Assembly: GCF_026210795.1 (NCBI RefSeq)
Contig: NC_089450.1
Coordinates: 2,232,001 to 2,296,000 of the forward strand
DNA length: 64,000 nucleotides
Reading direction: 5' to 3'
Source: Rhizophagus irregularis
Lineage: Eukaryota > Glomeromycota > Glomeromycetes > Glomerales > Glomeraceae
The notes under the pieces were generated by a model that was given only the letters and a program-made list of their open reading frames with translations, was not told the DNA's origin and searched no databases. A program made the translations under genes and the position numbers. This document shows positions 2,717-63,116 of this stretch, in pieces. How positions within the stretch are numbered: position 1 is the first letter of the stretch; the number at the start of each line of letters is the position of its first letter.

Positions 2717-2998
2717 ATGAATCATTTAAATATTTCTCAAGATTCTTCAAATCAAACATTTTACACAACTAACGATTATGAAGAGTCATCTATTATGGAT
2801 AATGCTTCAACTCAATCTCTTCCTATGACTAACTCATCGTCCTATCGTGTTCTACGAAACCGTCGAATTCAAAGAAGAATAAGACATGGAAGTACAATCA
2901 ATAATATATATATGTTGAATCGCATTAGACAATTATCAAGACAGAACATGAACAACCAATTCGCAAACCAATTCTTTAATGGATCTAACTTCTTTTAA
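2717..2998 (+). CDS. Small orphan protein with FFNG C-terminal module (93 aa)
   Basis: Encodes 93 residues with no recognised domain, signal peptide or membrane segment. Residues 1-42 are rich in Ser, Asn and Thr. A basic arginine-rich patch follows (about 43-57, with RNRRIQRRIR). The end reads NRIRQLSRQ, then an Asn/Gln stretch, then NQFFNGSNFF. A paralogue of identical length lies on the minus strand at 31618-31899; the two share most residues, and their few gaps balance so total length is kept. The same terminal module ends the longer proteins at 39102-39814 and 62364-63116. The start is chosen because both paralogues begin MNH at the same place and a TATA-like run lies about 80 bases upstream. 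The basic patch could bind nucleic acid or act as a nuclear signal, but that is inference. Function unknown. Confidence 0.72.
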   Translation: MNHLNISQDSSNQTFYTTNDYEESSIMDNASTQSLPMTNSSSYRVLRNRRIQRRIRHGSTINNIYMLNRIRQLSRQNMNNQFANQFFNGSNFF

Positions 2999-3850
2999 AG
3001 ATGATTATATTCATAAAATAGCTCATTCTTAATTCAAATAATTCTTACCTTTGAATTAAATGGCAAAATTATTTTTCTGATTCTATTTTTTATTTTTTCT
3101 TTTTTCCGAAAGAAACAATTTATAGAGAGGTTTAAGTTCTGGAATAACTGATAGACAATTAAAAAAATTCACATTTATGAAAACTAATTTTGATTCTTAA
3201 AATTATTAATAAAAGATCTTTATCATTTTATATCCTTTCGGACCATCCAATTATTTACGCTGGGTTTGTTTTTCCTTGTTTTTTTTCCATAGTTTTGCTG
3301 TGATTTTATTTTTTTTGAATCAAAGTTTCTTAAGAGTTTTTATTAGAAAAAACATGATATGTTTTCTTTATGTCTTTTATTTTTTAAATTAAAAGTAATT
3401 AATATTGTTAAGTAGAAAATTATTTTTAGCTATGATAGAGAAAAAATTTTTCTTTTCTTTTCTTCTGCTATAAATAAATCCATAATAAGTAGTCTTATAT
3501 GCAAGAATGCACTTTATTATCGTATAAATAATACACATGTAATAAAATAAAACACTTTTATGAAAAATCGATTTGAGTATACTATGAACATTTGGAATAT
3601 TTCCAATTGTACAAATATTTATTTATTTCGGAGTATTTTTAAATCTGAATATAAATCTTAATATATTTGGAAGACTAATAAAGTCTGTATATCAATACAA
3701 TATTTAAGTGCTAAACAGTGATTTATACTTATCATTTGTTGATAAGAGAGAATCATTTGTATCGTGAATATTATTATATTCCTTAAAATAGTCTAATTAA
3801 AGAAATAACGAAGGCTAGTAGCATACTAGATTTCTTTAAAGAATCTTCTA
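2999..3850. repeat. 3' flank duplicated in inverted orientation at 30540-31617
   Basis: No gene is seen. The sequence matches, in reverse complement, the DNA downstream of the minus-strand 93-residue gene. For example, the stretch near 3510-3580, with a run of ATAAATAATACA and then GAAAAATCGATTTGA, has its counterpart near 30850-30930. The gene and its downstream flank were therefore copied together. Confidence 0.6.
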
Positions 3851-4125
3851 TCCCTTAACCAAGCCTTTCCTTTTTTAGCAGTTAGTCAATATAGTGACAT
3901 GAGATATTAGGTGTGATATCATGTCCGAAGCGTAGAGAAGGACATTCCCAGTAGAGTGACTGGACGATTTGATAGCCAACCCATGCCGTATTCCTTCCTA
4001 CTATCCACCTTATAGGCCTATGCGTCTACTCCTGCTTTTTCTTTTTTGATTATATATCACATTTTTATAATAACAATAACAATGATAAGGGCATAAGGCA
4101 TTTTGAAAATTTTCTTTAGTGACGG
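3851..4125. other. Unassigned stretch with a small hairpin
   Basis: GC content is somewhat higher than in the neighbours, but no coding frame, tRNA or rRNA is recognised. An imperfect hairpin lies at 3896-3925 (GACATGAGATAT pairing with GATATCATGTC, one bulge). Confidence 0.3.
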
Positions 4126-4400
4126 CGGATATTTCTTGTTGGTTCTGCAGCTTCCTTCTTTTTTCTTTTTTTTTGTTTCGTATTTTGCTTCTTGTTAATT
4201 TCTTTTCTTTCTTTTAGATCTTTGAACTCTTTGATCCTGCAATCAAAGATATGTTATCTTCTTATTTCTTTTCTTTGTTTTATTTTTTGCTTCTTGTTTC
4301 TAATTTTTTTCTTTCTTTTGGTCTTTAGGTACTTCAGTTTTGCGACAAAGGTACCTTTTCTTTATGGACGTTGATCTTTTCTTGATCTTGTAAATTTTCC
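4126..4400 (+). repeat. Small array of intron-like pyrimidine-rich units
   Basis: Two similar units about 103 bases apart share TTTTGCTTCTTGTT followed by a long pyrimidine tract ending in an acceptor-like TTTAG (near 4185-4220 and 4287-4330). The short segments between them read like tiny exons (ATCTTTGAACTCTTTGATCC). The style resembles the clearer arrays at 15290-16140 and 35260-35800, though common origin is less certain here. No continuous protein can be read. Confidence 0.4.
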
Positions 4401-4479
4401 TTGATCATCCCCCCTTTATTTTCATCCTCCATTTTACATCATCTTTTATTTTTGTTTATTGGTTAATAAAAAATATAAA

Positions 4480-6080
4480 TTTCGCTCCGGATTCATAATG
4501 ATTTCCGTTTCCTATCATATCAAGAAATGTATATAGACAAATATTTTGATTAGAAAAAATATAAATATATATTATAATAATCTTTAATTTTTTGATAATT
4601 ACCGTATAAATGATCTCAACTTAATTGGTTTTTGTAATAAAACATTTTAAGATATATAATAAACTACTTTAATATTTTGGCAATTTAGCATATGTAGAGT
4701 TTCCTGTTTAGTTTGTAATTATATTCTTCATTTATTACTATAATTATAGCATCGTTGTGTATTTTAGTATTACATTTAATTAAAGTATATAAATGAAACC
4801 AACCTTTAAAAATTTTTTTTTTATAGAAAAGGAGATCACTTACCATTTAATTTATCCTTTTCTCTTTTCGTAGAAATCATTTCTTATTTTCGATTTATCA
4901 TTTTCTCTTTTTAAGAAAAAAAGTTCGTCCCAGGATTTTAACATCACTTTCAATTATGATTTAAAATTTACCTCGAAATATTAATATCTTTTATTCGTTT
5001 TATAAAGAGAATTCTGAATATTTCATTATAATTAATTATAATTTCACTAAATTTATAGTTTATTTGAAAAAAGTTCTAGTCATCAAAAAATTTCAGTTGA
5101 AAAAAATCTTAGTAAAAAGGGAAAGAGTAGTAGCAAATTCATTATTTATCAGAATCCAAACAAAATAAAAAATTTGTTTGATAACGGAGAAATAGTCTAA
5201 GTCTTAAATAAAGGTTAAAGATGCGTAGAATTGATAATTTTTTCATATTGACCTTCCTTTCATAATCAGCATATCAAAATTGAATGATTGACTGTAAATA
5301 TTGTGATGATCATTTCTGTAATCATCCGCCATTAAGGGGAAAAAAATTAAAATTAAGGAGTACATTATCGTAAATGTAAGTAGCTTTCTAATTATATAAT
5401 AATAATAATACCCTGCAGTTAATATGAAAGAGGAAAATTGAAAGTAATTAAAATTCAGTAAAGAAATAAATTTTATCGATATATTATATTATTTGTCATC
5501 TTTTTACACATACTGTAATTACAATTATAAATTGATTATATAACTGTATATATTAATTTCACATGGGTAACAATAATTATGTAATTGACTATGAAAACTA
5601 CTATGACAATAAGCATTGTGATCGGGGTAATAAATACATCTTACCGTATGATATTAGAGGAAAATGAAAAAATTTTCTGATTTAATCGGTGATGACCGAG
5701 TTCGAATTGATTGTAATTTTTTTCACAATATTGGTTTTATCATTTATCTCACGATTTAAAACGCTTCTATTCGTGGAAAAAAGTTTTTTAATTGACCATA
5801 TAAGGAAATTCAGCATTTTATTTTCATGCAAGAACTCTATATTGAATATTCATCTAATTACTTTATATGGAAAATTATGAATGTAAACATATATATAAAT
5901 TAGATGCAATGAAAGGATTTATAACCTAGTACCATATGACTAACTTTGTGAATTCACCAATCGTGTTAAACATGTTGATTATAAAAATTATATTACTTCT
6001 AAGACTTTTTTTTTATGAAAAGCATTTATTATAATTTTGTTTTTATAGTAACAAACCGAATGTAGATACAAATATATAAA
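4480..6080. repeat. Inverted copy of the block at about 17.87-19.4 kb
   Basis: The stretch matches 17.87-19.4 kb in reverse complement at several points. The end near 5930-6080 corresponds to 17.93-18.06 kb, the stretch 5690-5780 to 18.21-18.35 kb, the area around 5400-5500 to 18.65-18.78 kb, and the start near 4690 to 19.15 kb. The short open frame at 5689-5880 lies inside this repeat and its mirror copy is not preserved as protein, so it is not called a gene. Confidence 0.6.
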
Positions 6081-6324
6081 CAACACAATTGAGGTTTACG
6101 TAATCTTGTTTGTATAATACAAAAATAATTTGATCGATCGTTTGGAAGTGGAGGCTGCGGTTTATCGGTAACAAAATTAACCGGCAACGGAAAATAAGTC
6201 AGGTTCTTTCCTTTTCAAATTTTTTATTTATTAATTAAGGAGTCATATTGAAACCTACAAATCCAATAAAATCCATTCTCTCAAAAAGGTTACTCTGTAT
6301 TATCTCTTTCTAATAATAAAAAAT

Positions 6325-6366
6325 AGTTATTGGATAGGGGATATCGGTCTTCCCCATCCAATAACT
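6325..6366. repeat. Long imperfect hairpin
   Basis: AGTTATTGGATAGGGGA pairs with TCCCCATCCAATAACT across a short loop, giving a stem of about 15 paired bases with one bulged base. It lies in a small stretch that is open on the minus strand (6290-6499, 69 codons) but resembles no known protein. It may be a tiny foldback element or a structured transcript. Confidence 0.45.
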
Positions 6367-6871
6367 GAGTTATAGTTCGGCCATTAGGAATACTGTGGTG
6401 GCAAATAGGAATTAATGCTACTAAAAACGATTTCAATATTGGATGACTCATAAAAATATCGCTCATTAAAATCCCGCATATTCCTAATCGACTGAACAAT
6501 AACTAACAATAATTCATTATCATAAATTTTGCGAAGCACGTAACATAGTTACGTCAAATTATTAATTATTGCATAATGCCGGGTAGTAAATTATAAGAAA
6601 TTAAGCTAAAATTATAAGTAGCAGTGTTTATAACTCTATAGTATAGTCAAAATATCACGATTTTTAATGTAAAAATCACGCGATGTTTTATAGACAAAAA
6701 ATTATCATATATATATATATACATACTTCCTTTTTCTCTTTTCTTAAAATATGATTGTCAGCTAGCCGTAAGTTTTGTGCAATTTATCAGAATTTTTTAT
6801 TTCGCGTCGTGTTTCGCTAAAAATATTTTATTAAAAAAAATATATATTCTTCTTCGTAAATAAAGATTGGC

Positions 6872-7016
6872 ATTGCTAAATCTCACCGCAGGTGATTTTC
6901 ACCGTACCAGCATTAGCAAATATTAATGGGCGGAGTTTCATGACATTTTTAATTCTGCCCAAAATTCTACCCTAATTCTGGTAAGGTGACAATCACCAGC
7001 GGTGATATTTAGCAAT
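6872..7016. mobile_element. MITE family A, copy 1
   Basis: About 145 bases bounded by inverted repeats beginning ATTGCTAAAT(C/A)TCACCGC and continuing GGTGATT(T/G)TCACC. No coding capacity. A second copy with the same ends lies at 11703-11855. Each terminal repeat itself contains a small palindrome (TCACCGCNGGTGA), so single ends could fold. The autonomous partner is not in the window. Confidence 0.7.
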
Positions 7017-7626
7017 ACTCAATAAAGTAGTAATATTAACACGGTACATCAAAACACATTAACACAACATTTAAATAAAATTTAAATTTTGCAAATAAAA
7101 AATAAATTCAAAAAGTTTATTTATATAAATGGCCTTTTTTATTTTTTTTTATGGATTACCAATTTATTAAATATTTCAATATAAACCCATTTAAACAAAT
7201 CTAAAGTTCTAACATTACAAAACAACCAACACTACACAAAAGTTAAAGTGCCAACTCCAAAAAAAAGAGAAACATTTAAAAAGAAGGAAAGTTAAAAAAA
7301 ATTAATACTCAATAAATAAAAAATATTCAACTCCATGAAACTTACAATGTTTAACAAAGAAATCCTAAATAATGCACCCAGGCATCCCTAAAAAGAGGAA
7401 AGGCATTTTAAAGTTTTTTTAAAGAAAAAGGACGAAATATTTTAAAGTAATAGTCTAGAAGAAAAAAGAAGTGAAACTTACCACATTCTTAAAAAGAAAA
7501 TACTAAATTAAAGTAGTGTAAGAGAGGTGCTTAAAGTATATTTCAAAGATAAGGGGCGTAAGTTTTTTTAAAATAAAAGGTCAAAAGAGAAAAGAGTGAA
7601 AGTCTTGTGTAAAAATAAAGTGAGGT
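7017..7626. other. A-rich spacer, nothing recognised
   Basis: The plus strand is purine- and adenine-rich with repeated AAAAAGA-type runs. No gene, RNA or element end was identified. Confidence 0.5.
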
Positions 7627-8004
7627 TAATGACATCGCGCCAGACGACCATAGCGTCGCCTCCAAAAAATGGTAGCCGGATTATTTTGCCGGTTCTTTAA
7701 TGTTAGGGTTAGGATTAGGGTTAGGATTAGGGTTAGGATTAGGGTTAGGATTAGGGTTAGAATTAGGGTAAGGGGATTAGGATTAGGATTAGGGTAAGGG
7801 ATTAGGGTTAGGAATTCGTCACATAATGTCACACCCTAACGTTTCTTTAATTTTATAATTATTCTGAGGACAGAAAATTTTTTATACGTAAAGTACTAAA
7901 TGTCACGTATTATTTATCACCTCTCAATAATATATGTAACCCGGCAAATTAGAACTGGCTACCATTTTTTGGAGGCGACGCTAGGGTGGTTTATCGCGCC
8001 ACTG
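7627..8004. mobile_element. TIR element enclosing a telomere-like array
   Basis: The two ends form an inverted repeat. The best part, about 27 bases, reads TAGCGTCGCCTCCAAAAAAT then GGTAGCC (7651-7677 on the left; its complement at 7956-7982 on the right). Further out the match is looser but still visible (GCGCC and CCA motifs), ending at CAGTGGCGCG on the right, read inward. A TA dinucleotide can be placed at both outer edges, as for Tc1/mariner or pogo-type elements, but the left end is degraded and this is tentative. The interior has no coding sequence and carries the TTAGGG-like array at 7703-7813. Confidence 0.6.
7703..7813 (+). repeat. Interstitial telomere-like repeat array
   Basis: About 110 bases of TTAGGG alternating with the variant TTAGGATTAGGG, with occasional GTAAGG units. 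TTAGGG is the common fungal telomere repeat. The array is irregular and lies inside an inverted-repeat element, so it is an interstitial tract, not a chromosome end. The minus-strand open frame over it is a by-product of the repeat. Confidence 0.85.
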
Positions 8005-8606
8005 TAACTCACGTGTTATATATGACTAATTTTTACTTTTAGATAATTCCCGGTCGGCATTATGCTGTTGTTTTCCTTATAGCCAGTATCGGTACAATCA
8101 TTGTTTCATAAATTATTTTGGATTAATTGATGGAGATTCCTTAACGTAGTAACGCACCGTGCGTACGTACATCCTACCAGAGTTTAGGAGTTATGCACTT
8201 GCACGTGATAGCGTTAAACTTAATTCCGGGCGTACGTATTAATATGATATATAATTCCAGAGTTTTCGAAAAATTTAAATAAATATTTATTGTTTTGTTT
8301 TGTTGTAGTATGTCAGCTGTTATGTAAAATGCCAGCTAGCTGAGCCGCGGATTATAACAGAAAAGTTCAAAAAAATAATACTTTTTTAAAAATTTATTGT
8401 ATATTACAATTAGTAAGTTACATTGATAAATACCATGAACAATATCTGGATCTCTAAATTTTCCGCTCCGCAGGAATATTTAAAACTTCAAACACTTTAA
8501 TTCTGGTCAAATTTACATTACCGGCCGGAATTAATTAAGTTACGTGCAGCCGTTTCAACAAGTGAAATTATATGCAAGTAATAACTTGAAGTTCACTCAA
8601 TCCTAA
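8005..8606. other. Spacer with AATTCCGG-type motifs
   Basis: No gene is seen. Copies of the palindromic CCGG motif occur near 8047, 8229 and 8502-8535 (TTACCGGCCGGAATTAATT), like those in the first 2 kb. Confidence 0.45.
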
Positions 8607-8710
8607 CCCTATAAAAAAATTCTGGAAAAAACTGATAAATGATCATTTTTCTAGTTTTTATTCCAAAGAAACTCAGACATATGATCATTTTTCTGAAAGA
8701 TTTTTATAGG
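8607..8710. mobile_element. MITE family B, copy 1
   Basis: A hairpin-like element of 104 bases. It starts CCCTATAAAAAA, contains TGATCATTTTTCTAG and an ACTCAGACA core, and ends in the inverse TTTTTATAGG. Related copies are at 18835-18942, 19540-19646 (inverted), 33750-33853 and 45145-45211. No coding capacity. Confidence 0.75.
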
Positions 8711-9390
8711 ATAATATGGAATTTTGGTCATTTGAGAATAATTTAATCCTTATCGGACCATTTTCTGAATACCATTTTACTGAATATACCTTTTCCTAAA
8801 GTTAATTACCTCTGAATGCCAATTTTTCGAACTGGGCATTTCTCCGAATATCAAATCTCCCGAATCCCTATTTCTCGAATTCCAATTCCTGAAATCCGAT
8901 TTCCTGAATCCTGAATCCCAATATCCTGAATTCCAATATCCCGAATTGAAAATGTATTTTTTAAAAATTTATTGTAGTTTATAAATCATATGGAATAAAA
9001 ATGAAATTACTATTATAAAACCACTAATCAGGATTTGACTAATTTCCGCTAAATAATACAAATATTTTATTCATTATAAAGGATAAAAGTAGTGCTCCGC
9101 AAAATTCGAGTCTAACCCGGATAATTCAACCCGAGTGAATTTTAAATCGGGTCGGTACTAACAATTTTAATAACCCGTGACCCGCATGATCCGACCCGTC
9201 GGGTCGGGTTATTCATTTTCTTGACTCGGGGTTTAACCCGAATTAGACCCGGATGATCATTAAAATCAATGATTACGCGTTAATATTGATTAATTTTATA
9301 TAATTTTGTTAGATGAATGAGGTAGTATAGCGAAAATTGCTAGAGACACCTTGCAATTACAGATATATGTATGAATTATTATTATTAATA

Positions 9391-10313: not shown

Positions 10314-10350
10314 TTAAATTAACTAATAAGTTGATTTTGATAATTAATAA

Positions 10351-10473
10351 GCAACCAGCGTTCCAGTAGAAAGAGTATTTTCCGGTGGAACCGATTTGAT
10401 AGCTGCAAAAAGATGTAGTCTTAAAGCAGATACAATTAGAGCATGCATGTGTTTAGAGTCCTGGCAGACATAA
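10351..10473 (+). pseudogene. hAT transposase C-terminal dimerisation domain remnant
   Basis: Forty codons up to TAA encode the typical hAT C-terminal dimerisation signature: A-T-S-V-P-V-E-R-V-F-S-G-G, then K-R-C-S-L, then R-A-C-M-C-L-E-S-W. This block is characteristic of hAT transposases, where it joins monomers. Nothing of the RNase H-like catalytic core is seen before it, and a Helitron interrupts the element just upstream. It sits near the 3' end of the hAT element, where this domain is expected. A relic, not a functional gene. Confidence 0.85.
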
Positions 10474-21412: not shown

Positions 21413-21976
21413 ATGAATCCTTCACAAGACAATATTGGTAACAGCACTCACATAACCAATTTAACTGGGTTCATTAATGATAACTGCAACAGGTTACCAC
21501 AAGCAACTGCTGAAACTATTCAAGCGGAAAATATTAACTGTGACGATCCTTTTTGTAATTGCAATAATGATGACACTTCCGTGGTGAATAATAATTTTCC
21601 TGCAAATACGACCATTCCTCTTTATCATAATCAATCTATATCTCACAGCACTTCAAAAAATAACGATATTATTTCTCCTGGCAATGCTAATTATCATCAG
21701 CAACAAATTTTCAATGATGTTTCAAACAATAATATAAATATCTCTCCTAATAACAAATATCAGCAATCCATCTCTAACAATACTTCCCCTCCGCAAATTC
21801 ACTCGCAATACATTGATCAAAATCCACTTCAAACTAATGCCTTTCCTTCACTTAATTCACTTGGTATTGTTATAAATTCTCCTCAAACGTACATTGTTAT
21901 TATGCCAGCACCGGTGACTAGTAATCCAAACAGTCAACAAGATAGTAGTTATCCGAATCATTCTATCCGTCAATAA
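21413..21976 (+). CDS. Asn/Ser/Gln-rich orphan protein (187 aa)
   Basis: Encodes 187 residues with no recognised domain. The N-terminal part (about 14-50) has NLTGF, then CNRLPQ.TAET.QAENINC, then a DPFCNCN cluster of closely spaced cysteines. Residues 50-140 are low-complexity Asn, Ser and Gln. The C-terminal part (about 143-170) has FPSLNSLGIVINSPQTYIVIMP, the most hydrophobic stretch. The paralogue at 48766-49338 keeps both ends nearly unchanged while the middle varies with in-frame gaps, which argues for a real protein under selection. No signal peptide or clear membrane helix. The Asn/Gln-rich centre is of the kind found in intrinsically disordered or aggregation-prone proteins. Block R begins 500 bases downstream. 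Function unknown. Confidence 0.72.
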   Translation: MNPSQDNIGNSTHITNLTGFINDNCNRLPQATAETIQAENINCDDPFCNCNNDDTSVVNNNFPANTTIPLYHNQSISHSTSKNNDIISPGNANYHQQQIFNDVSNNNINISPNNKYQQSISNNTSPPQIHSQYIDQNPLQTNAFPSLNSLGIVINSPQTYIVIMPAPVTSNPNSQQDSSYPNHSIRQ

Positions 21977-25075: not shown

Positions 25076-26937
25076 ATGCCCAAAACTAAAAGTGCACTAA
25101 ATAAATATTCCCAAGCCAAAGGTAAAGATAAAATGAGAACTTTACCGAAAAGAGCATCTTTAACTATTGCCCAAAAGCATGAAATATGTTTTAAAAAAAT
25201 CAACGAACCTTATATAAAAAATAAAGAACTTGCGGAACTATATAATGTTAGTGAAGGATGCATTAGTGATACGTTAAAAAAATCACAAAAATGGCTTGAA
25301 ATTGACCCTCAAGCACCCGAAGCCCAAGGGAAAAGACAAAATAAGTTGAATTTTCCAGAAATTGAAGAAGCTCTTACATTATGGGTATTGAAGGCTCTAG
25401 AAAATGGTGTTGATATTAGTGATCAGGTTTTACATGAAAAAGCTATAGCATTTGCTTCTCTATATAAAGTTGAAAATTTTAAAGGAAGTAATGGTTGGAT
25501 TGGTGGATTTAAAAAAAGACATAATCTTTCTTGCTATTTAAAACAAGGAGAAGCTGCAAGCGCACCTCTTGATAAACTTGATGAATTCAGAAAAAACCTT
25601 CAAGATTTGATTCGTAATTATAGTCTTGAAGATGTTTTCAATTGTGATGAAACTGGTTTGTATTGGAAAATGGAACCCAAAAGGACGATCTCCAATAAAC
25701 CTGTATCTGGAAAAAAACAATCTAAAGATCGGGTAACAATTCTCCTTTGTTCTAATGCAACTGGTACTGAAAAGCTCAAACCAGTATTCATTCACAAATA
25801 TAAAAATCCTCGTCCTTTAAAGAATTTATCCAAAACATCTTTACCAGTAGAATATTATTGGAATTCAACAGCTTGGATGCAAGTTTCTATTTGGAATGAT
25901 TGGATTCGTAAGTTTGATGCACAAATGAGATTAAAAGGAAGAAATATTCTTCTTCTTATAGACAATGCTCCTGTCCATGCTTTATATGAAGGTGTGGAAT
26001 TGACCAATATAAAAATTGAATTTTTGCCTCCTAACACAACTGCACACTTACAACCATGCGACAAGGGTATTATAAATAGCTTTAAGGTACTAAAATTTCA
26101 ATATAATTTTAATAATTAAGAAATTCTAACTTACAATATTTGATTTTGCAGGCACAATATCGAAAATTGCTCCTTCAAAATCGTATCAAGGCTTTTGACT
26201 TTCAACAATTAACAGGAAATAGTAAATCTCCAATCAATATCAAAAAAGCTATTAAATATGTTGTGTCAGCCTGGAATAAAGTTCTTCCTAAAACTATATT
26301 TAACTGCTGGAATAAAACGGGAATTTTGCCAGATGATACGAATTCTTATAACGAAATTGAAGAGAATACGCATAATGAGACAGAAGAAAATGAATATAGA
26401 GAAATTCAAGATTTAATCAATAAGCTTGAGTATACACACCCTCTTACTGCTGAAGAATACATTAGATTAGACCAGGAGAATGAAAATGCCAGTATACCCC
26501 CATCTGAAGAGCAGATCGTTGCTATTCTTAAAGAAAATAATACTATGTCTGATGATGAAGGTGATAAAGATATTATTTCAGTAATTTTTAACTATGTAGA
26601 GCAAAATGATAGTCAAGATATTTTTGATAAAAGTGCATTAAAGGTAATGAAAAAAATTAGAAAAATTGTTTATAGAAATAATTTTTTTTCTAAAAAACAA
26701 TCAAGTTTAGATTTATTCGTTACAGATAAAGGTAGTAAACTCAAGCCAAATAACACTGCTATTGATCCAGTTGATAATAATACTATGAACAGGGAAAGGG
26801 AAGGCGATAATAATATTATTGATATTGAAAATTTTGATTTTGAAGCTTTGTATTTTAATGAGTTTGATTTTTATAATTATGAAGAAGACCAAGGTTTTAT
26901 TGAATATCAAATCGATGAGAATAGTCTTTATAAATGA
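25076..26937 (+). CDS. Pogo/CENP-B-like transposase (598 aa, spliced)
   Basis: Transposase that would bind the element's ends and carry out cut-and-paste transposition. Exon 1 is 25076-26086 and exon 2 is 26152-26937. The 65-base intron has a GTACTA donor, a TTCTAAC branch motif and a TTTTGCAG acceptor; both exons join in phase 0. Residues 26-75 are a CENP-B/psq-type helix-turn-helix (SLTIAQKHEIC, then ELAELYNVSEGCISDTL). Residues 88-155 form the second Tc5-type HTH region (GWIGGFKKRHNLS). The DDE_1 catalytic core shows D191 (FNCDETGLYW), D296 (LLLIDNAPVH) and D329 (LQPCDKGIINSFK), a DD32D spacing typical of pogo. The C-terminal tail is acidic and variable. No stop or frameshift is seen. Without splicing, translation ends ten codons after the donor. 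Confidence 0.92.
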
Positions 26938-31617: not shown

Positions 31618-31899
31618 TTAAAAGAAGGTAGATCCATTAAAGAAAAGGCCTGCAATTTGGTTGTTCGTGTTCTGTGTGTTCTGTCTTGATAATTGTCTAA
31701 TGCGATACAACGTATCTATATTTCCATTTCTTAATCTTCTTTGAATTCGACGGTTTCGAAGAATACGATAAGAAGATGAGTTGGCCACAGGAAAGGATTG
31801 AGTTGAAGCATTTTCCATAAAAAAGGATTCTTCACGATTGTTAGTTGAGTAAAATGTTTGATTTGAAGAATCTTGAGAAATATTATTTGAATGATTCAT
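31618..31899 (-). CDS. Small orphan protein with FFNG C-terminal module (93 aa)
   Basis: Minus-strand paralogue of 2717-2998, also exactly 93 residues. Features in order: Ser/Asn/Thr-rich start (MNHSNNISQDSSNQTFY), arginine-rich patch (LRNRRIQRRLRNG), then YRIRQLSRQ, an Asn/Gln stretch and the end LFFNGSTFF. An in-frame ATG 20 codons upstream (31957-31959) exists. The start at 31897-31899 is preferred because it matches the paralogue and because the upstream codons overlap the promoter region. Upstream on this strand, block R is present inverted at 33065-33540, the same relative position as for the 39102 and 62364 genes. Function unknown. Confidence 0.72.
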   Translation of the reverse strand: MNHSNNISQDSSNQTFYSTNNREESFFMENASTQSFPVANSSSYRILRNRRIQRRLRNGNIDTLYRIRQLSRQNTQNTNNQIAGLFFNGSTFF

Positions 31900-39101: not shown

Positions 39102-39814
39102 ATGTTCAATTTAGAATTAACTCATCGAAACCGGTCTATTATCGAAAAAAATTCTTATGTGAATGCATCGATAGACCCAGGGACCATTTTTATCGATATA
39201 AAACTATTTCAAAAAGTTCAAAATCTCTTGAAGAAATTTGATCAAAATTTGACTTATCAATTCGAAATTTACAGTTCTCAGAAAATTAAATTACTTTTTA
39301 AAGGTAATTTGCCTTCAAAAAAGAATGACCTAAAATTGCAATTTTATTTTCACTATATTAGTCTTCTCCATATTCCTAAAATGTTGAAGAGTGTTGGAGA
39401 TTCGGTCAATAAAATTGGCATATCTATACCTACTAGACAAAAGTCAATTCAATTAAATTTTAGTAGAGAACATCGACTCAAGATTCGTCACAAAAAAAAA
39501 TTGTATCAAGGAATTTCCTTAAGGTAAGATCAGTTACTTTGATATTAAACTTAACATCATATTATATTAATTCATTCGGTAATTTTTCTAAACAATAAAA
39601 ATTTCAAATCTTTTTCTAAAATAATACATGCCTGGTAAATAGACCTTTAATCAATGTTGAAACATTTGGATTACGACAGGCTAAACAAAGAAGGCAAAGA
39701 AGGCGAAATCGACTTATAAGAAAACAATGTGGTCATGCAAGATTTATAAATCGGATAATAAATCTTCCTCGACAAACCGTAAGAAATCAGTTTTTCAACG
39801 GATTTACGTTTTAA
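39102..39814 (+). CDS. Long FFNG-module protein (197 aa, spliced)
   Basis: Exon 1 is 39102-39523 and exon 2 is 39643-39814. The 119-base intron has a GTAAGA donor and an AAATAG acceptor; exon 1 ends in phase 2 and the join makes an Arg codon. The acceptor is chosen because it keeps the frame and aligns exactly with the paralogue at 62364; the later ACAG at 39676-39679 breaks the frame. The product has a unique N-terminal domain of about 140 residues (MFNLELTHRNRSIIEKNS, then FIDIKLFQKVQNLLKKF, then GNLPSKKND and FSREHRLKIRHKKKLYQG). A basic stretch follows (KQRRQRRRNRLIRKQ), then NRIINLPRQ and the end NQFFNGFTF. No signal peptide or membrane segment. The N-terminal domain is not recognised. 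The basic stretch could be a nuclear or nucleic-acid-binding segment (inference). Confidence 0.75.
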
Positions 39815-41119
39815 AATTTCTTTGGCAGTTAATATTAAATAAATTGGCAAATATGACAGGCAAAAAGTGAACATTATTTTTTAAACGAATCGTCATACTA
39901 AATTGTAATCGTTGGCAATTCTTTTCTTAACGTATTTTTATGGTGGCACACATTATTATATTATTTTTAAATTACAAATTTTTTATGATTATGACTCCCT
40001 AAAAATTAAGCTTTCTTTCGCTCGTATATGTATTTAATTTAAAATTTTAATATGAAAGTATCAAGTCAGTGTGATTACAATATTAGGTATTAGTTAGACT
40101 CTGTTTATTTTTTAACTGACTTTACGATAAATGTTTATAATATCATTTATATTTTAAGATTCAAAATACAATAATATTTATCCCTAATCGGCACCATTCA
40201 CACGATTATGCAAATGTAGTTATACCTACCGGGTAGAAATTTTATATGTATTTATTTACCGTTCCAAGTAAAAATTAACTATTTACAGTATTATACTATA
40301 CTAATAGACGGATTAGAAAATTTGAGTAATTCAGAAAGATTTGCATTTTCCAAATGATAATTTATTCGTAATCTCAATATTATTTTCAAGTGTAAGCTTT
40401 TTAAAATCTTTTAAAATGAAAAAAAAACCAAGCAAAAGAAAATAATATTCACAATAAAATATACTATATTTATACTCACGATATACTATAAAATACTTAC
40501 TATTGTGTAAATGGCAGGGGATAAGTAATACTTATATTTTATTTACATAATCCTTACTACAGTAATTATAAGATTGTTGATTGATTTTGTTAACCAAATA
40601 TTTAAAATATCATTATGATTGGCGTTTCCTTTCTTATCAATTTATCTTAAAAATTTTGTTTCTAAATAAGATATTAATATTATACGGTATTTACTATTTT
40701 TTTTTTGATTTTCTTCAATTTAGCAGTAAATATTAATTGCGATGTTATGTTCCGCTCGTTATATCTAGCTTTATTTAGTTGTTATGACAGTCCAATTAAA
40801 TACGCGAATTATTTTCATTATACATATGTAGTAAAAACTTTAAAATAAAATTTTCACTTGAATCTTGGGCAGGCTAAACGGTTCCTTATCTTTGAGATCA
40901 ATATTCATAACGGACTGAATAAGTTTCTTCGAGTTCAATTTACTAGCCTCTATGGTGATATATATATCGGTTCCTAATTTAAAGAAATATACCGTACATG
41001 AAATACAATCTCTTTCAAAATTATAATATACAATATTGTGATTTCAAAATATTATATAAACACACCAGTTGAACAATTTATATATTAAATATATATATAT
41101 AAGTAATATAACCGTCAAA
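39815..41119. repeat. Downstream flank of the first long FFNG gene
   Basis: No gene. The first kilobase matches 63117-64000 in order. Near 40705 the partner has a 130-base inserted element that is absent here. Confidence 0.6.
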
Positions 41120-48658: not shown

Positions 48659-48710
48659 GAGTTAGCACCGAGTCAATGATGATCATTATTTTTTTATTTA
48701 AACCCACAAC
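48659..48710 (+). promoter_or_regulatory. Conserved promoter region of the second Asn-rich gene
   Basis: GAGTTAGCACCGAGT, GATGATCATT and TTTATTTAAACCCACAA occur in the same order and spacing as at 21299-21350. Confidence 0.5.
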
Positions 48711-48765
48711 AATTGCCCAGCAATTATCATTTTTCAACATTTCATTAAACTTAAAATATATTAAT

Positions 48766-49338
48766 ATGTATCATTCACAAGAAAATATTGACAATAGTGC
48801 TCATGAATCCAATTTAACTGGATTCACTAATCATAAATGCAATAGGTTATCGCAACCAACTGCAGAAACTTTTATTCAAGCGGAAAATATTAACTGCAAC
48901 GATCCTTCTTGTAACTGTAATTATGATGCTTCCGCGATGAATAATAATAATTTTTCTGTTGCGCATGCGACCATTTCTCTTGATCATAGTACTATGTCTC
49001 ACAGTATTTCAAACAATAACGACATTATTTCTCCTGGCAATACTAATTATCAGCAATCAATTTTTAATGACGGTTCAGACAATAATATTAATATCTCTCC
49101 CAACGACAAATATCAGCAATCTATGTTTAATAATACTACTTCACCTCCGCCACCACAATTCCACCCGCAATACATTGATCAAAATTCGCCTCAAACTAAT
49201 GTCTTTCCTTCACTTAATTCACTTGGTATTGTTATAAATTCTCCTCAAACATACGTTATCATTATGCCAAATCGTCAACAAGATAATTACCCGAATCATT
49301 CTATCACTGATAATTTACAAACTCAATTTAAACAATAA
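48766..49338 (+). CDS. Asn/Ser/Gln-rich orphan protein (190 aa)
   Basis: Paralogue of 21413-21976. The frame is open from 48631, but the start at 48766 is preferred because it aligns with the paralogue's start and because the earlier codons cover the conserved promoter. N-terminal NLTGF, CNRL, TAET, QAENINC and DPSCNCN motifs are kept, as is the C-terminal FPSLNSLGIVINSPQTYVII. The Asn/Ser/Gln-rich centre differs by in-frame insertions and losses. A proline run (TSPPPPQ) lies near residue 127. The last 20 residues differ between copies. No signal peptide; function unknown. Block R follows from 49955, as after the first copy. Confidence 0.72.
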   Translation: MYHSQENIDNSAHESNLTGFTNHKCNRLSQPTAETFIQAENINCNDPSCNCNYDASAMNNNNFSVAHATISLDHSTMSHSISNNNDIISPGNTNYQQSIFNDGSDNNINISPNDKYQQSMFNNTTSPPPPQFHPQYIDQNSPQTNVFPSLNSLGIVINSPQTYVIIMPNRQQDNYPNHSITDNLQTQFKQ

Positions 49339-54277: not shown

Positions 54278-54370
54278 GATAATGAGTATGATATAACCCC
54301 ATTGTATGTATGGTATGGTTTTTATTGCCTATACTGTGTAGTTATTAATTTTATACAGTATACTGTTACT

Positions 54371-54476
54371 TTAAGGTTAGGATTAGGGTAAGGATTAGGG
54401 TAAGACTTAGGGTTAGGATTAGGAGAATTAGGGTTATGGTTATGGTTAGGGTTAGGGTTAGGGTTAGGGTTAGGGA
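54371..54476 (+). repeat. Interstitial telomere-like repeat array
   Basis: About 105 bases of TTAGGG-type units. They begin as variants (TTAGGATTAGGGTAAGG), include TTATGG units and end in about five perfect TTAGGG repeats. As at 7703-7813, the array lies inside an inverted-repeat element and not at a chromosome end. Confidence 0.88.
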
Positions 54477-54557
54477 TTTAGCTATTTAAAATATAAAGAT
54501 TAGAGTGGTTATACAGTACGGATAAAAAAACTATACTGTATAAAATAAAAAACTATA

Positions 54558-54756: not shown

Positions 54757-54796
54757 ATACCATACATACAATGAAAGTTATATCATACTCATTATC

Positions 54797-56249: not shown

Positions 56250-57553
56250 GTACGACCTGCGTCGATAAGTAATATCGAACAAAATAAACATGAACCCATA
56301 GCCCAAAATACCTTACAAAATATTCTTAGTATATACTGTATATTTTATTTGCACATGAAATTAAAGTGAAATTACAACTAGCCTAACGCTTAGCCGTTTG
56401 ATCACGTGTTCGCATAACTCAGGACAAACTTGTCAGGCAAAAATGTCTTGCTGTCTTGCCATCGGGAAATCATGCCGTAACACGCAGTGGATCAGTATGA
56501 TGATTGTATAATGGATGGAATAGGAAAATCAGGGGAAGATACATAATACAAAATTTTTGAAAAAGAAACTATTTTTATAGATAATGAACAAGTATTATAT
56601 TATAAATAAAAAATTTTGATTAATAAATTAGTTACCAAATTTTATTCATTTTTTTAATTGACTATAATTTGTTAACGTTGATAGAAGAAAATCCCTTGTA
56701 TTTTACTGTGGAAGATTCGCGATAAGCCTTAATGTGTTTCCATTATTAATGGGTGTGTTAGGTGACTTAGGTCTTAAATATCTTTTTATAATTCTTTGTC
56801 TTCTTATTTGTTCTGACTTTTTTGAGAAGGCATTTTCGTTTTTATAACGTATTTTAAGAAGTAGATAAAAAAAAGTACAAAAAAAGAACGTATTTATAAC
56901 ATTTACATGGCACAAAACTACGACAGATAATCGTTACAATAAACATTCATTCAAACATATTAGTGTAAATAAAGTTATTTTTATATATTACTTATAGTAT
57001 CTGTTCACGTATATTTTAAAACAGAAAACATGATGGGCGCGTTAAAATCGGGGCATTGCTTGATTATTTTTGCATCTATAATTACTATTTATTATTATAT
57101 AAAATTTTGTAAAAGGAAATAATCTAACTCTGTTTACGTCTTTCATAAAAGTAAACCTTGGTCACACTTACACAAAACTACGCAAGTTTTACCAACCAAT
57201 ATGAATACTATCTTTGTTCATATTGCACAAAATAAATCGCACCTTTATCTTTTCTTTTTCCGAAATATATGAAAATTTATCTTTATTCCTGTACTGATAT
57301 ACATGTACCAATCTTATTCTTTTAAAGAATAAAGACTAATGCAACTTGCCAGATTGTAAAAAAAAATTTTTTTTTATTTAAATATGGAGATGAGTAATAT
57401 ATTTTCCATGGTTACTTGGATTATTTTTTTCCGTTAAAAATGCGTTAGAAAGTAAATCAAGAAAAATTGCAAAAAAATTTTATATTATTAATCATTTAAC
57501 TCATTTAACATGAATGATGAAAGGAAATTTCTGGTTTGTAATTTTTTACTTTT
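56250..57553. other. Gene-poor stretch
   Basis: No gene accepted; the minus frame at 56703-56915 has weak protein-like composition only. No repeat ends recognised. Confidence 0.4.
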
Positions 57554-57555
57554 TT

Positions 57556-57593
57556 AGAAATTTCCAGAAATTTCCGGAAAGTTTCGGAAAATT
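57556..57593. repeat. GAAATTTCCGGAAA cluster
   Basis: Three or four tandem variants of GAAATTTCCGGAAA, a motif that is its own complement at the core. Similar clusters lie near 20425, 46678, 58045 and 60205. They may be element subterminal repeats or stem-forming motifs. Confidence 0.5.
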
Positions 57594-57686
57594 CAGGTAT
57601 ATATTTTCCCATTACAAAGTCCGCTTATATTGTAATCCTAATTACTAATTTTTTTGCATAATCATAAATCTAACCTAAATCGGTAT

Positions 57687-57787
57687 CGGGACATTTCGCC
57701 GAAAGCCATTTCGCCGAAAAATAATCTCTGGCCTGAGTTATTTATAATTCTGCATAATGTTGGCCCTTTCGTCGGCGAAATGTACCG
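57687..57787. mobile_element. MITE with GGCGAAATGT ends
   Basis: 101 bases. The left end CGGGACATTTCGCCGAAAG and right end, inverted, CGGTACATTTCGCCGACGA match except for small differences. The left arm has a second CATTTCGCCGAA unit. The 63-codon frame across it is a by-product. A related GTCGG-rich tract is at 27884-27945. Confidence 0.65.
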
Positions 57788-58254
57788 TAACCTCATAAAT
57801 CTATCTAGAATTAGCCCAATTAAGCAAATAAGAAAATTGGCGTAATTTTGGTGATGAATAATATATTCAGACCCAGAATACCTAAAATTTTTTTATTATG
57901 GTGAATATCGTTGAAAATAAAAAAATAATAAATAAAAAATGCGAATTTTATTTTATTAAATTTTTACAAATGTCAAAAAATTTTTCTCGCATTTTTAGAG
58001 TGAAGTGAGTGATAATTCTGTTTGTGCAAAGATTTTAAATCAATGACTTTTTTCGGAAATGTCCGAAAATTTTCGAAAATTTCCGGAAAATTTCAGATAA
58101 GTATATATATTTTTAGTTATATAATTACTACATAATCACGTAGTGATATAAACAATTCCCGAAATAATCAAAAAAAAAAAATAAAGTAAAATAAAAAATA
58201 TAAAATATTTATTTTTCTTCAAACATTTTATGGATTTTCCATTATTTTTTTTTG

Positions 58255-60810
58255 TAACGTGACTTTTTGGATTTATCGGAAATTTCTGCTACTCCTTTAA
58301 TTTTTCAAAGAAAGGTCATATTGCTGTTGCTAATGGTTAGGTTTAATTGCGATTATTCATTGATGGAAGGTAATTCTCCAAAAAAGATTTAATTAAAAGA
58401 ATTTCGGTTATAACAAAAAAGGAATTTAAAAAGAAAATAAATTATGAAATAATTTATATTATTGTCGATTTAATGATATTCAATACAATTATTCTTTAAA
58501 ATCAATATTCAAACAATATTAAATGATTTACATGAATAATTTCGTTTATGGAAGAAATTCAATGAAAAATCAGCAATTAAACAAGATTGATAAATTTATA
58601 TCCATCAATCTTTTATGAGTCTGATCGAGCTTTTTCTGATTTAAACTAGTTTTTTAATAATGAAGACTACTGCGTTCAATAGAAAGATTATACACGGTAA
58701 CTCCGTTTGATATATAAATCAACAAATGAGAGAGAATCAATTTTTTTACACGTTATAAAAAATCATTTTATGGTTGGTGTCTTTTCTTTTTTGTTTATTC
58801 ATTGTTTAAATGAATTTACAAGAAAGTCTTATCATTTGTACAGTACTTTAATATCTATTATAGTTTCAAATTCGGTACGGGTTATTTTTTTTCACACGAG
58901 ATTTGAAATATACTGAATATAACGTACTTTAAATGAGTTAATGAATAACTTTGTTTACTAAATTTAGAATACTGAATTTTACGAATCGGATAAATGATCG
59001 GCCGGTAGGCTTAAATTATGAACCAAGAGCAGGCGGAGCGCTGTATGTTCGAAAAATTTAACTATGCAACAACACTAACAAAAGGAAGCCTTCAAAATTA
59101 TGCTCCGATTGTAAAGGAGCAAAAGATTGGGTTAGTTTTTTTTCAAGTAAAGTAAATCAGATTGAAGAGATCATTAAAATTTAAAAAAGAGGATCGAACA
59201 AATTTCTAAATCCAAATACTAAATTTACTTTAAAATAATGTGCCTTGTGAATTAGAATATAATTTACCAAATTTTTCTTTAGAAAATTTGCAAAAATTGG
59301 CGATTTTCACAACTCAAAATTGCAGTAATAACTGATAATAATAGTTATGATAACGGTAAACATTCCTATTAAATAAATTCCTCCATCAAATTTCATTTAT
59401 GAATTGTTACAATATAATGCTGACAAACATTCCTTATAAAGTTGATTGTTTGAATATTCCTAAACAAAATAAGTTTTTTTCGTTAAATTTAATTCCGGCC
59501 AACATTAATTGATCGGTGTATAAATTTACCCTTTTTGGAAACCTAAATTTATAAAATTATAACATAAAAATGAAATAAAGATGGATGATATTAATATTAT
59601 ATATCGAGTGATTAAAAAATCAAGAAAAAAAGACTTGTTAAATACAGTGAGCATCCTAATCTTAGAAATCCTTTTATTTATAACTTCTTTACATAAAAGT
59701 GCCTATTCTATTTTGGTATTGTCTAGTATCGATATAATATATTTATTTGCTCGAGCACATTTTCGCACTTCCACCGAAATGTTGATGCAACGGTTTAGTA
59801 ACTGACTCAAACTACATATATATAAAAGGCCAAAAGCCTTAATAACATACGTTCATATTAGTGATGCAAACAACCCTTAATCTAAAAAAGATTATAGAAA
59901 ACAACTATTGCTTTTTTTTTAAAAAAAAAATGTCTATTACAATTTTATTATTGTGTATTAAAAATAGTATCAATATGAAATAAAAAAAAAAATTCTGCCA
60001 AATTTATTTCGCCCAATTCGCCTGGGCAAATTTTATTATGTTGATTAATGTCCATTTTACATGTTCATTTTACCATAGTGATAATTTGTCCATTTAATAT
60101 AGTAGTAGTTATTTGGACATTGACGCCAATAAAAAAAAATCAACCGTATGTATGTACTAGCTCTATAATATATATAATATATTGAGGACAAGTACGGTAC
60201 TGTATGGAATTTTTGGAAATTTTCGGAAATTTGATCAACTGTACATTTGCCGTACTGATCTTGTGCTGTGTAACGATGTAACGTGATTTTCGGAGATTTT
60301 TATTCAAAAAATTCCGTAGCGAATAACGGAGTTTTTTATTAATAAAGGAAACAAAATTATATTCTTATCAGTTTATACGATAGTAATGTGATTTTTTCTA
60401 TATATATAGTGATTTTTTATAGTACTTCGATAAAAGCGATTTTTTTTTTTATACAAGATATACTGTACAGTAAAAATTATTAACGCAATCAATAGAAATT
60501 GCATTGAATATTTTTTAAAAAAAAAATTGGGAAATAAATGTTTCTAAGTCCGTCGGAGCTTTTTATTATTCTTTAAAGTCAATATTCAACAACAATATGA
60601 AAGAGATTCAGACAATTAGATTGATCAACAATTGTCTTTAATAGATTTAAACTAAAAAGATAATTTATTTTGTTCCGTTACTTCCGTATGTAAATTTCCT
60701 TCTTAAGCGATTTATACGTAATTTAGGGCGCAACTTTGCAGTTTCGACATTTGATGAGAAACAAAGAAATATTTAAGCTTTACGTTACATCATATGAACT
60801 ATTCTGGCTA
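58255..60810 (+). repeat. Block R, copy 4, interrupted
   Basis: Two parts match block R: 58255-58925 (GGTCATATTGCTGTTGCTAA; GAGTCTGATCGAGCTTTTTC) and 60380-60810 (CTAAGTCCGTCGGAGC; GGGCGCAACTTTGCAG). The 1.4 kb between them has no match in the other copies and is probably an insertion. Within it, 59581-59805 is a 74-codon frame listed separately. Confidence 0.55.
59581..59805 (+). other. Possible small protein gene, unknown (74 aa)
   Basis: An ATG-to-TGA frame reads MDDINIIYRVIKKSRKKDLL, then a hydrophobic stretch of about 35 residues that could form one or two membrane segments, then a polar tail (FARAHFRTSTEMLMQRFSN). It lies in DNA absent from the other block R copies. A positive N-terminus before a hydrophobic centre is protein-like, but no relative is recognised. 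Confidence 0.25.
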
Positions 60811-60859
60811 TCATATTTAAAAAATTTTCTAAAAAACATGATGATCATAATAATTAGAG

Positions 60860-61370
60860 GTTGGAACCGACCGAAAAAACCTGATTAATCGAATAATTAA
60901 TCGGCTAATTAATCGGTTAATTTATAATAAGATTAATCGGTTAATTAACCGATTAATATATAAAATTTAAGTTTATAGTAAGTTTATTTTATTTTATTTA
61001 TATTTTAACAATTTTAACCTGCCATTAACATTTTATAATTTTTCGCGCACTATCACATGACATAATTAATGTTCCGAAATATTTATTTATACAAATACTT
61101 AATTACAAGAAATATTTTATAAATAGCGTTAAAAAATAAAAATAAAAAATAAAGTAAAAATTTATTAGTTTAATATATACAAAGTTCTTCTCGGGCTTAG
61201 AAAATAATTTTAATTTTTTTATTTGTTGCTGCTGAATACTAGTTGTTGATTCCAAAAATGACGACATTTTAGAAATTGTAGTGGAAGATGCAAGCTTTGA
61301 CGATCCAGATAAAGATTCTTTCAACATATTCAGAAAAGTAATCATTCAGTTCGTTATCATCCATGTTAAA
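60860..61370 (-). pseudogene. hAT-like remnant with TTAATCGG repeats
   Basis: On the left, TAGAGGTTGGAACCGACCG is followed by six or seven TTAATCGG/CCGATTAA units (60880-60960), including a perfect AATCGGTTAATTAACCGATT palindrome. On the minus strand, an ATG at about 61360 starts MDDNELNDYFSE. After a frame break the reading continues ESLSGSSKLASSTTISKMSS and LESTTSIQQQQIKKLKLF (61310-61195). A short acidic start followed by a Ser-rich linker is seen at the N-terminus of some hAT transposases, and the repeats resemble hAT subterminal repeats. No catalytic or dimerisation domain remains. The assignment is tentative. It is absent from the paralogous place near 38405-38590. Confidence 0.35.
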
Positions 61371-62297
61371 TAGCCACTTTTAATAAATAAAGTTTTATTA
61401 AATTTTTTATTTTTTTTACGTAAATATATATAACTAATAAAAAAATGTTTGTGACCTTGTTATGTTTGTAATTTAACTAAATTTGTTAAAACTTGTCCAA
61501 AAAAAAAAATATTATCTATTTTGAGATGATCTGCATTGACAGATTAAGGGATTCATAATAAGCCCTGCAATTCTTATTGAGTGTCAGGATTTTTAAATTT
61601 TCAGGATACGTTACACGAAGAAAATTTTATCCGTTCCACAACAAGCGATTGTTTATTCCGTTAATGAAATGATCACTAATGCAGGTTATTTATCGTTTAA
61701 TTGATCATAAAAGGAACAATCCTGTTGGAGTGAGGAAGTTTTTTTTTATAGAATCTTATTTTTGCGTCGCAATAAAAAAAAAATTTTTTTTTTTACGTAT
61801 TATTTTACGTCTCAATTGTTTCATTCATTCATTCATTCATTCATTCATGTATTTTTTTATTTATTTAGTCGCTCATTCGTTTATTTACTTTTGAAAAAAA
61901 AATTATTAACTGAATTCGTCAATTTTAGAATATTACACCATACTTATACAGTTTTGTTGACCCGAAATGTGATATAATGATGTGTTTTGACGAAATTATT
62001 TACATCTTTCTTTGTTGCATATTGCAGATCTAATCAATTAATTAAAAATTTATATTAGCCAAAGTACCAATCACACAGAGTTATTATGCCTTAAGCATTT
62101 TAATTTGCTGAAAATTTAATCGAGAAAAAAACGAGGTTATTTTCAAGTTCAAAAGTAAAATTTAAATTCATGCCAATAAGATGAACTAAAAAAATATATA
62201 TATATAAACTATATCAATAAAATATTTTAGTGATTTTCAAATTCTAACCATAAATTGATAATTAATAAAATTATAATCAAAATGCATGTATAAAACT

Positions 62298-62305
62298 TAT
62301 ATAAA
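62298..62305 (+). promoter_or_regulatory. TATA box of the second long FFNG gene
   Basis: TATATAAA, 59 bases before the start codon at 62364 and matching 39038-39045. Confidence 0.65.
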
Positions 62306-62363
62306 GCACCAGTTTCTCCTTGAATTTGGAACTTGTCCCTCAATTACTAGAATTAAAAAGAAA

Positions 62364-63116
62364 ATGTTCAATTTAGCATTAACTCATCGAACCCGTTCCA
62401 TTATCGAAAAAAATTCTTATGCCAAGATTGAATTGTTGCTACTAGTGTATGCGTTGATCAACGCGATAGATCTAGGGACCATTTTTATCGATATTAAACT
62501 CTTTCAAAAAATTCAAAATCTCTTGAAGAAATTTGAAAGACATGATCAAAATTTGACTTATCAATTCGAAATTTATAGTTCTCGGAAAATTAAATTACTT
62601 TTTAAAGGTAATTTGCCTTCAAAAGAAAATGATCTAGAGTTACAATTTTATTTTCACTCCATTAGTCTTCGTCATGTCCCTAAAATGTTGAGGAATATTG
62701 GAGTTTCAATAAATAAAATTGGCATATCTCTGCCTAGACAAAAGTCAATTCAATTAAATTTTAGTAGAGAACATCGACTCAAGATTCGTCATAAAAAAAA
62801 ATTGTATCAAGGAATTTCTTTAAGGTATAATCAGTTAACTTTGATGTTAAACTTAATATCGTATTATATTATTTCATTCATTCTAATTTTTCTAAACTAT
62901 GAAAATTTAAATCTTTTCCTAAACAATGCATGTCTGGTAAACAGACCTTTAACCGTCTTAAATAAACGGGTTAAACAGAGAAGGCGAAATCGATTTAATC
63001 GATTTACAAGAAAACAATGTGAACACGCAAGATTTATAAATCGGATAATAAATCTTACTCGACAAACCGCGAGTAATCCATTAAGAAATCAGTTTTTCAA
63101 CGGATTTACGTTTTAA
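62364..63116 (+). CDS. Long FFNG-module protein (210 aa, spliced)
   Basis: Exon 1 is 62364-62824 and exon 2 is 62945-63116. The 120-base intron has GTATAA and AAACAG ends, with the same phase 2 join as the paralogue at 39102. The frame is open from 62286, but the start at 62364 matches the paralogue, and the earlier codons overlap the TATA box. The N-terminal domain is shared (MFNLALTHRTRSIIEKNS; FIDIKLFQKIQNLLKKF; LRIRH-like basic end). A 13-residue addition follows KNSYA (KIELLLLVYALIN), and ERH is added before DQN. All exon gaps are multiples of three. The end is KQRRRNRFNRFTRKQ, NRIINLTRQ, NQFFNGFTF. The intron has no stop and is divisible by three, so retention would give a 250-residue form with a hydrophobic insert. 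Function unknown. Confidence 0.76.
   Translation: MFNLALTHRTRSIIEKNSYAKIELLLLVYALINAIDLGTIFIDIKLFQKIQNLLKKFERHDQNLTYQFEIYSSRKIKLLFKGNLPSKENDLELQFYFHSISLRHVPKMLRNIGVSINKIGISLPRQKSIQLNFSREHRLKIRHKKKLYQGISLRYNQLTLMLNLISYYIISFILIFLNYENLNLFLNNACLVNRPLTVLNKRVKQRRRNRFNRFTRKQCEHARFINRIINLTRQTASNPLRNQFFNGFTF

Follow-up and report, generated by a model that had tools for sequence, protein, structure and literature searches.

The DNA analyzed here is a stretch of 64,000 nucleotides from the arbuscular mycorrhizal fungus Rhizophagus irregularis (contig NC_089450.1 of assembly GCF_026210795.1, hereafter C22; C22:2232001-2296000, called the window), and it contains several genes that end in the same short C-terminal module, referred to below as the tail. 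The genome analyzed comprised 146,748,485 bases in 32 contigs, and in it we found one module joined to several unrelated bodies, usually behind an Arg-rich stretch. On the basis of the sequences, we propose that this module may be a peptide that docks onto one constant partner inside the cell, a reading to which we assign a probability of about one half.

A conserved tail in the window and in the genome

The tail was searched for with a profile of 32 positions, built from 38 family members and used with a confirmation threshold of 15 bits. It found six window loci at 26.4-51.5 bits, i.e., those at 62364, 2717, 39102, 27.5 kb (minus strand), 31618 (minus strand), and 41120, while first-order Markov DNA (30 x 64 kb) scored at most 13.6 bits. 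When the five rows representing both window types were removed from the profile, the six loci still scored 18.4-45.1 bits, with 14.1 as the maximum in random DNA, and leave-one-out profiles still detected the tail with 24.0 bits on an NYN-type nuclease gene and with 36.1 bits on an HMG-like body, both described below. In addition, the pattern QFFNGxxF had 51 matches genome-wide, compared with 5 for a control read backward. A preliminary description of the window had reported the tail at five loci, one of them decayed (41120), and had considered that it could be a chance low-complexity match. The tail was present at all five, including the decayed one, and the scores against random DNA, along with the 146 copies confirmed genome-wide, spoke against chance. 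The number of loci had been underestimated, as a sixth copy was located at 27.5 kb and a decayed seventh at 56.7 kb, both on the minus strand. By window position, the features are the following:

2717-2998, plus strand: the 2717 gene, an open reading frame (ORF) of 93 residues with a Ser/Thr/Asn-rich N-terminus, then an Arg-rich stretch and the tail NQFFNGSNFF-stop; profile 49.7 bits
27542-27646, minus strand: sixth copy, missed in the preliminary description, tail FTNQLFNGVF-stop; profile 35.4 bits; probably 5'-truncated, because the open segment has no Met
31618-31899, minus strand: paralogue of the 2717 gene, 93 residues, tail LFFNGSTFF-stop; profile 30.3 bits
39102-39523, plus strand: 39102 exon 1, decayed F-box-like body with 141 residues open; donor ttaag^gtaaga
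39524-39642, plus strand: 39102 phase-2 intron between the body and tail exons, predicted from sequence; a similar donor occurs in most relatives
39643-39814, plus strand: 39102 exon 2, Arg-rich stretch and tail NQFFNGFTF-stop; profile 39.0 bits
41120-41289, plus strand: decayed copy, with EFFWRFGF where QFFNGxxF is expected; profile 26.4 bits
56667-56825, minus strand: seventh locus, a decayed relative of the minimal MPSQK-type gene found by protein search (68% identity, one internal stop), without a profile hit at the 15-bit threshold
62364-62824, plus strand: 62364 exon 1, decayed F-box-like body, 86% identical to 39102
62825-62944, plus strand: predicted 62364 intron, identified by eye from its analogy with 39102; as no stop interrupts its frame, the ORF 62286-63116 reads through it
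62945-63116, plus strand: 62364 exon 2, Arg-rich stretch and tail NQFFNGFTF-stop; profile 51.5 bits

According to this prediction, 39102 and 62364 look like two-exon genes with the tail in exon 2. The Arg-rich stretch before the tail is common to both types of gene in the window, so the shared part exceeds the tail alone.

Six genome searches listed 200 distinct tail places on 27 contigs, plus 39102 separately; in one search 150 of 164 candidates were scored, so more places may exist, and some of those listed are decayed or chance matches. The largest numbers were on C22 (48), C6 (24), C15 (22), C17 (21), C11 (18), and C20 (11), and 123 of the 200 places fell within six stretches that amount to 2.7% of the genome. 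Among the 152 places for which DNA was retrieved, 144 reached the 15-bit threshold and eight did not (C22 2288667, C4 4112562, C10 3276814, C4 3307105, C8 3392746, C27 196034, C7 2722497, and C28 2286550). The number of distinct copies confirmed with the profile was 146, on 24 contigs. A candidate on C27 (L019), with 6.1 bits, was rejected as chance.

Searches against known families gave no family at the cut-off in Pfam for the tail-bearing small proteins, nothing in NCBIfam for four proteins, no match among PDB sequences for the tail profile or the 62286-63116 ORF, and no relative in a viral contig collection for the one protein searched. The best Pfam match, the domain DUF3071 (PF11268) on the 2717 protein, was discarded, with 19.1 bits (E 0.0015) under a cut-off of 26.9 and a match at residues 31-65, before most of the tail. 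Resemblances to a PIP box, to PAM2, and to nucleoporin FG motifs were considered as well and set aside. In the open-access literature, no paper was found on FFNG together with arbuscular, or on astacin together with Rhizophagus irregularis. Such a family was unnamed in the titles and abstract openings of the papers listed there; subscription papers and supplements were outside this scope and may list the family without a name.

Column counts in 118 copies gave the consensus I-N-N-x-D-T-L-(N/R)-R-I-x-x-L-P-x-Q-(I/N)-T-N-(D/N)-(P/L)-(F/L)-x-N-Q-F-F-N-G-S-x-F, a module of about 30 residues. Its strongest positions were the G (115/116), the Q of LPxQ (116/118), the second F (113/117), the last F (110/113), and the P (97/118). 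In the 146 confirmed copies, the match ended directly at the stop codon in 88 and one residue before it in 36 (124 together), and in 129 of 145 copies with a visible stop the tail was no more than 3 residues away from it, the stop of L080 lying beyond the retrieved DNA. This adjacency to the stop, and the link with F-box-like bodies described below, would be expected of a C-terminal degron or of a sorting signal recognized at the free end. Signals read at a free carboxylate, such as peroxisomal targeting signal 1 (PTS1), KDEL, or a PDZ ligand, need constant terminal residues. Those of the tail are not constant, the last one being F in 47 copies, Y in 28, R in 19, P in 19, H in 9, and others in the rest, and 12 copies extend 11-25 residues beyond the match (on C11, C14, C16, C2, C3, and C28), seven of them on C11, where the extensions resemble one another. 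The variable last residue and the 12 extended copies make a free C-terminus unlikely as the recognized feature, and we consider a degron or sorting signal of this kind highly improbable. The earlier suggestion of a sorting, docking, or processing tag at the extreme C-terminus is hence retained as to position, which fits docking or sorting, but a reading at the very end is unlikely.

Parts of the module were found repeated in two copies: L059 repeats LPPQQTTNNPLID, and L080 repeats the module core. Such repetition, and the occurrence of a short motif both in diverse effector-like bodies and in stand-alone copies, would agree with an amyloid signaling motif, in which the QFFNGSxF core would template aggregation between receptors and effectors. 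Fungal NOD-like receptor (NLR) amyloid motifs of this sort, which unrelated effector bodies have in common with small partners, are described in PMC9815663 and PMC5485727, the latter giving a GxQxG segment as a feature of the fungal PP/RHIM motif. Unlike the motifs described there, the tail lacks GxQxG (found in 0 of 146 modules), is C-terminal, keeps a Pro and an Asp/Asn, and has no known receptor, NLR genes not having been searched for. We give this explanation very little chance.

Regarding the proteins as a whole, the median K+R content in the 25 residues preceding the tail was 36%. The proteins for which a start was chosen (97/118) had a median length of 72 residues and a median isoelectric point of 11.7, with values above 10 in 85 of them, and the typical product is an Arg-rich stretch followed by the tail, about 70 residues in total. 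No N-terminal signal peptide, as would be expected of a secreted arbuscular mycorrhizal effector, was seen in the minimal proteins when these were read by eye, no predictor having been run. AlphaFold2 (AF2) modeled the 2717 protein as a single helix at residues 41-88, with a mean predicted local distance difference test score (pLDDT) of 60, and 62364 exon 1 with a mean pLDDT of 39; these models were too poor for a usable fold search.

Bodies joined to the tail

The preliminary description had seen one module on two unrelated types of body; the bodies are indeed unrelated, and counting the N-terminal types raised their number to at least five. The first body is Ser/Thr/Asn-rich, of about 40 residues, and is found in 2717, 31618, and copies on C6, C17, C16, and C20. 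Longer frames on C6 (L050-L053) match this N-terminal segment of 2717, show no tail, and contain an IPGFKIIVIPN part. The second is minimal, consisting of the basic part only, as in the 57-58-residue MPSQK type. This MPSQK subfamily is spread over several contigs and includes decayed copies. Related repeated DNA was observed upstream of dispersed MPSQK-type genes at L150-L154, L158, and L159, with a 144-nt tandem array in L151 and a match in inverted orientation in L152; arrays of the 144-nt type were not listed by Tandem Repeats Finder in L154 and L157. At L156 and L157 (C4 and C10), 3-kb segments that are 93% identical adjoin a decayed tail copy, and their frames resemble by eye a protein kinase-Sel1 gene, a family search not having been made.

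The third body is F-box-like. Exon 1 of 39102 and 62364 is related, via intermediates on C22, to open frames of 607-632 residues on C19, C17, and C22, and a query with the first 233 residues of the 626-residue C22 member found 62364 (2.1e-4), the C22 fusions (best 2.4e-93), and the 607-632-residue frames. These matches indicate that the second type of the window descends from an F-box-like gene family. No F-box match at E<=1 was found by Pfam in the window exons, and three relatives scored 23.3 (L010, E 5.5e-5), 19.5, and 15.4 bits with PF12937, all under the curated cut-off of 24.3. Compared with the F-box-like (PF12937) family of the same genome, the window copies align only from residue 23 or later, and they lack the long C-terminal part and carry the tail at their end. 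The preliminary description had recognized no known family at these loci, which stands for the tail; judged by its 607-632-residue intact relatives, the body of about 140 residues is a decayed F-box-like remnant and not an orphan, the intact members being mainly on other chromosomes. An F-box-like match less than 1 kb upstream and on the same strand was found at 11 listed tail places, as opposed to 0 in control orientations, and together with 39102 this makes 12 tail-bearing F-box-like genes, all on C22, in most of which a conserved predicted intron separates body and tail. A donor aag^GT shortly before the tail exon was listed in 10 of the 14 C22 loci examined; the exceptions were 62364, with the same form by eye, for which the automated listing had used the read-through ORF, L081, with gag^GT, and L010 and L057, with none listed there. 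The C19 F-box-like gene lacks the tail when read through to its end. As C19 has zero listed tail places, the tail was probably gained on C22. Manley et al. (2023; PMC10234402) describe a burst of genes restricted to Glomeromycotina, including many F-box genes, as well as young regions with abundant small RNAs.

The tail was also found on enzyme-type bodies. On C3, the two exons of an astacin gene (L160/L180) matched Pfam at 8.7e-12 and 2.7e-19, and in comparison with Astacin, peptidase family M12A (PF01400), this gene has both domain parts with HELMHALGFHHEHCRPDR. A second one, C6:4994, is 65% identical to it and has a tail of 28.1 bits. In both, the Arg-rich stretch and the tail lie beyond the astacin end, whereas the members L184 and L185, read to the end by eye, have no tail; no signal peptide was seen by eye in the tail-fused astacins. 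These two belong to a set of 12 astacin matches, and they were the only ones positive with the tail profile among the 7 astacin loci retrieved. Four of the 10 unfused matches have a listed tail place no more than 3.5 kb away, all four at C17 3.40-3.82 Mb (P 1.2e-6 genome-wide, 0.0026 within the cluster); as copies of a single duplicated pair do not count independently, this neighborhood is only a hint. On C28, an NYN-nuclease-type gene (PF01936, E 1.5e-15) is predicted to be formed by an NYN exon and a tail exon. Set against NYN domain proteins (PF01936), the copy at 467001 ends in a full tail, and its neighbor at 464968 keeps just LPQQNTDDP (15.4 bits).

Two further loci, L033 and L061, are tentatively described as high-mobility-group (HMG)-like bodies. 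Pfam gave no HMG box (PF00505) match for L033 (E<=1) or L061 (E<=10), and hhalign against HMG boxes of the same genome gave E 0.015 and 0.009, with a probability of 3-5%, compared with 0.29 for two control bodies. A general link between HMG genes and tails was discarded, since just 6 of the 150 HMG matches scored (275 candidates) had a listed tail place within 20 kb.

The relationships among tails suggest that the tail was captured on several separate occasions, from copies that were nearby or related. The five tails nearest to that of L061 are all on C11, and of the 15 nearest to three F-box-like genes, 14 are on C22. For the C6 astacin all are on C17, and for the C3 astacin 3 of 5 are on C17, the best one being on C22. 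The same relationships would also be consistent with a tail that is a self-assembly or stability part, e.g., a dimerization strand, of small basic nuclear proteins with no separate partner; the fusions would then have arisen incidentally, through tandem duplication and read-through. In line with this, small open frames make up the majority of the confirmed copies, the F-box-like fusions have their nearest tails mostly in the vicinity, on C22, and the astacins have theirs mostly on C17, where astacin and tail genes adjoin. However, the tail is still recognizable in 12 F-box-like genes and behind enzyme-type bodies encoded on C3, C6, and C28, and we regard self-assembly as somewhat unlikely.

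Selection on the tail and its proposed role

There are signs of selection on the protein, stronger on the tail than on the body, and by the following comparisons the family is coding-like. In 50 paralogue pairs, picked by protein similarity at 50% identity or more, the ratio of the proportions of nonsynonymous and synonymous changes (pN/pS) was 0.356 in the tail and 0.552 in the body, the latter estimate possibly containing untranslated leader. At the DNA level, identity in all 45 pairs with enough flank was 0.850 in the tail, 0.780 just past the stop, and 0.695 in shuffled flank, the tail exceeding the post-stop flank in 36 of the 45. In the 16 pairs with diverged bodies (less than 80% identity over the 90 nt before the tail), these values were 0.771, 0.691, and 0.688, and the tail was higher in 14.

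This selection on the protein argues against copies carried by a mobile element, with the reading frame as a by-product. Such an origin would be in line with the dispersal of the MPSQK subfamily over several contigs, decayed copies included, and with the upstream repeats that several copies share, among them the tandem array in L151. A BLAST comparison of ten 5-kb neighborhoods revealed the shared upstream repeats and no recognizable element ends; no obvious ends were found in three 5-kb neighborhoods searched, non-exhaustively, for inverted repeats (L154, L156, and L157), nor any transposase-like ORF by eye in two (L157 and L158). We judge a mobile element very unlikely.

From the observed position, conservation, and modularity of the tail, and from the signs of selection at the protein level, we infer a partner, a docking step, and a localization. 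The tail would bind a single constant partner, and the body would set the output. The short members, made of the Arg-rich stretch and the tail, would be the ancestral minimal form, probably nucleic-acid-binding or nuclear, with the Arg-rich stretch giving the nucleic-acid or nuclear contact. Neighboring genes in or near the clusters would then have captured the tail exon, generating the F-box-like, metalloprotease, and NYN-nuclease versions, which would bring different outputs to the same partner.

Several observations weigh against docking. The fusions are few, with 12 F-box-like, 2 astacin, and 1 NYN gene with a full tail, and the fused bodies could be accidental in gene-dense clusters. AF2 gave no confident fold for the tail. 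Picking pairs by protein identity in itself lowers pN, and in the diverged pairs the tail identity of 0.771 exceeds that of shuffled tail DNA (0.718) by a modest margin. Moreover, the 102 nt after the stop of 39102 and 62364 (39837-39938 and 63130-63231) are 97% identical, no less than the coding part, whose blocks are listed at 82-96%, and recent pairs therefore share flanks; this conserved flank is possibly a 3' untranslated region element or the trace of a recent duplication.

About 200 genes with an exchangeable conserved tail would constitute a large unnamed family of an arbuscular mycorrhizal fungus, whose members may be missed by annotation on account of their small size. The tail is also a short handle with which the putative partner and, through it, the whole cellular system could be fished out, and it exemplifies the capture of a module by unrelated genes within gene clusters. 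A broader version, which we see as quite unlikely, would make the tail the plug of an uncharacterized intracellular network of arbuscular mycorrhizal fungi, e.g., for self/non-self recognition or for defense against nucleic acids. One receptor-like partner would engage interchangeable outputs (protease, nuclease, and ubiquitin-ligase adaptor), and the scores of Arg-rich copies that stand alone in rapidly changing clusters would serve as sensors, decoys, or silencers.

Other sequences in the window

Apart from the tail genes, the window contains a Tc5/pogo-like transposase ORF at 25076-26119 on the plus strand (DDE_1 3.3e-35, HTH_Tnp_Tc5 6e-16). Internal telomere-type TTAGGG arrays of 17-18 units each are present at 7702-7813 and 54371-54475. 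A block without long open frames is repeated at 22.5-23.5, 36.6-38.5, 50.1-50.7, and 58.2-60.8 kb, with conserved stretches of 70-154 nt and identities of 66-97%. Two paralogous Asn-rich ORFs were also observed on the plus strand, at 21413-21976 and 48676-49338, both with GIVINSPQTY(I/V)(V/I)IMP.

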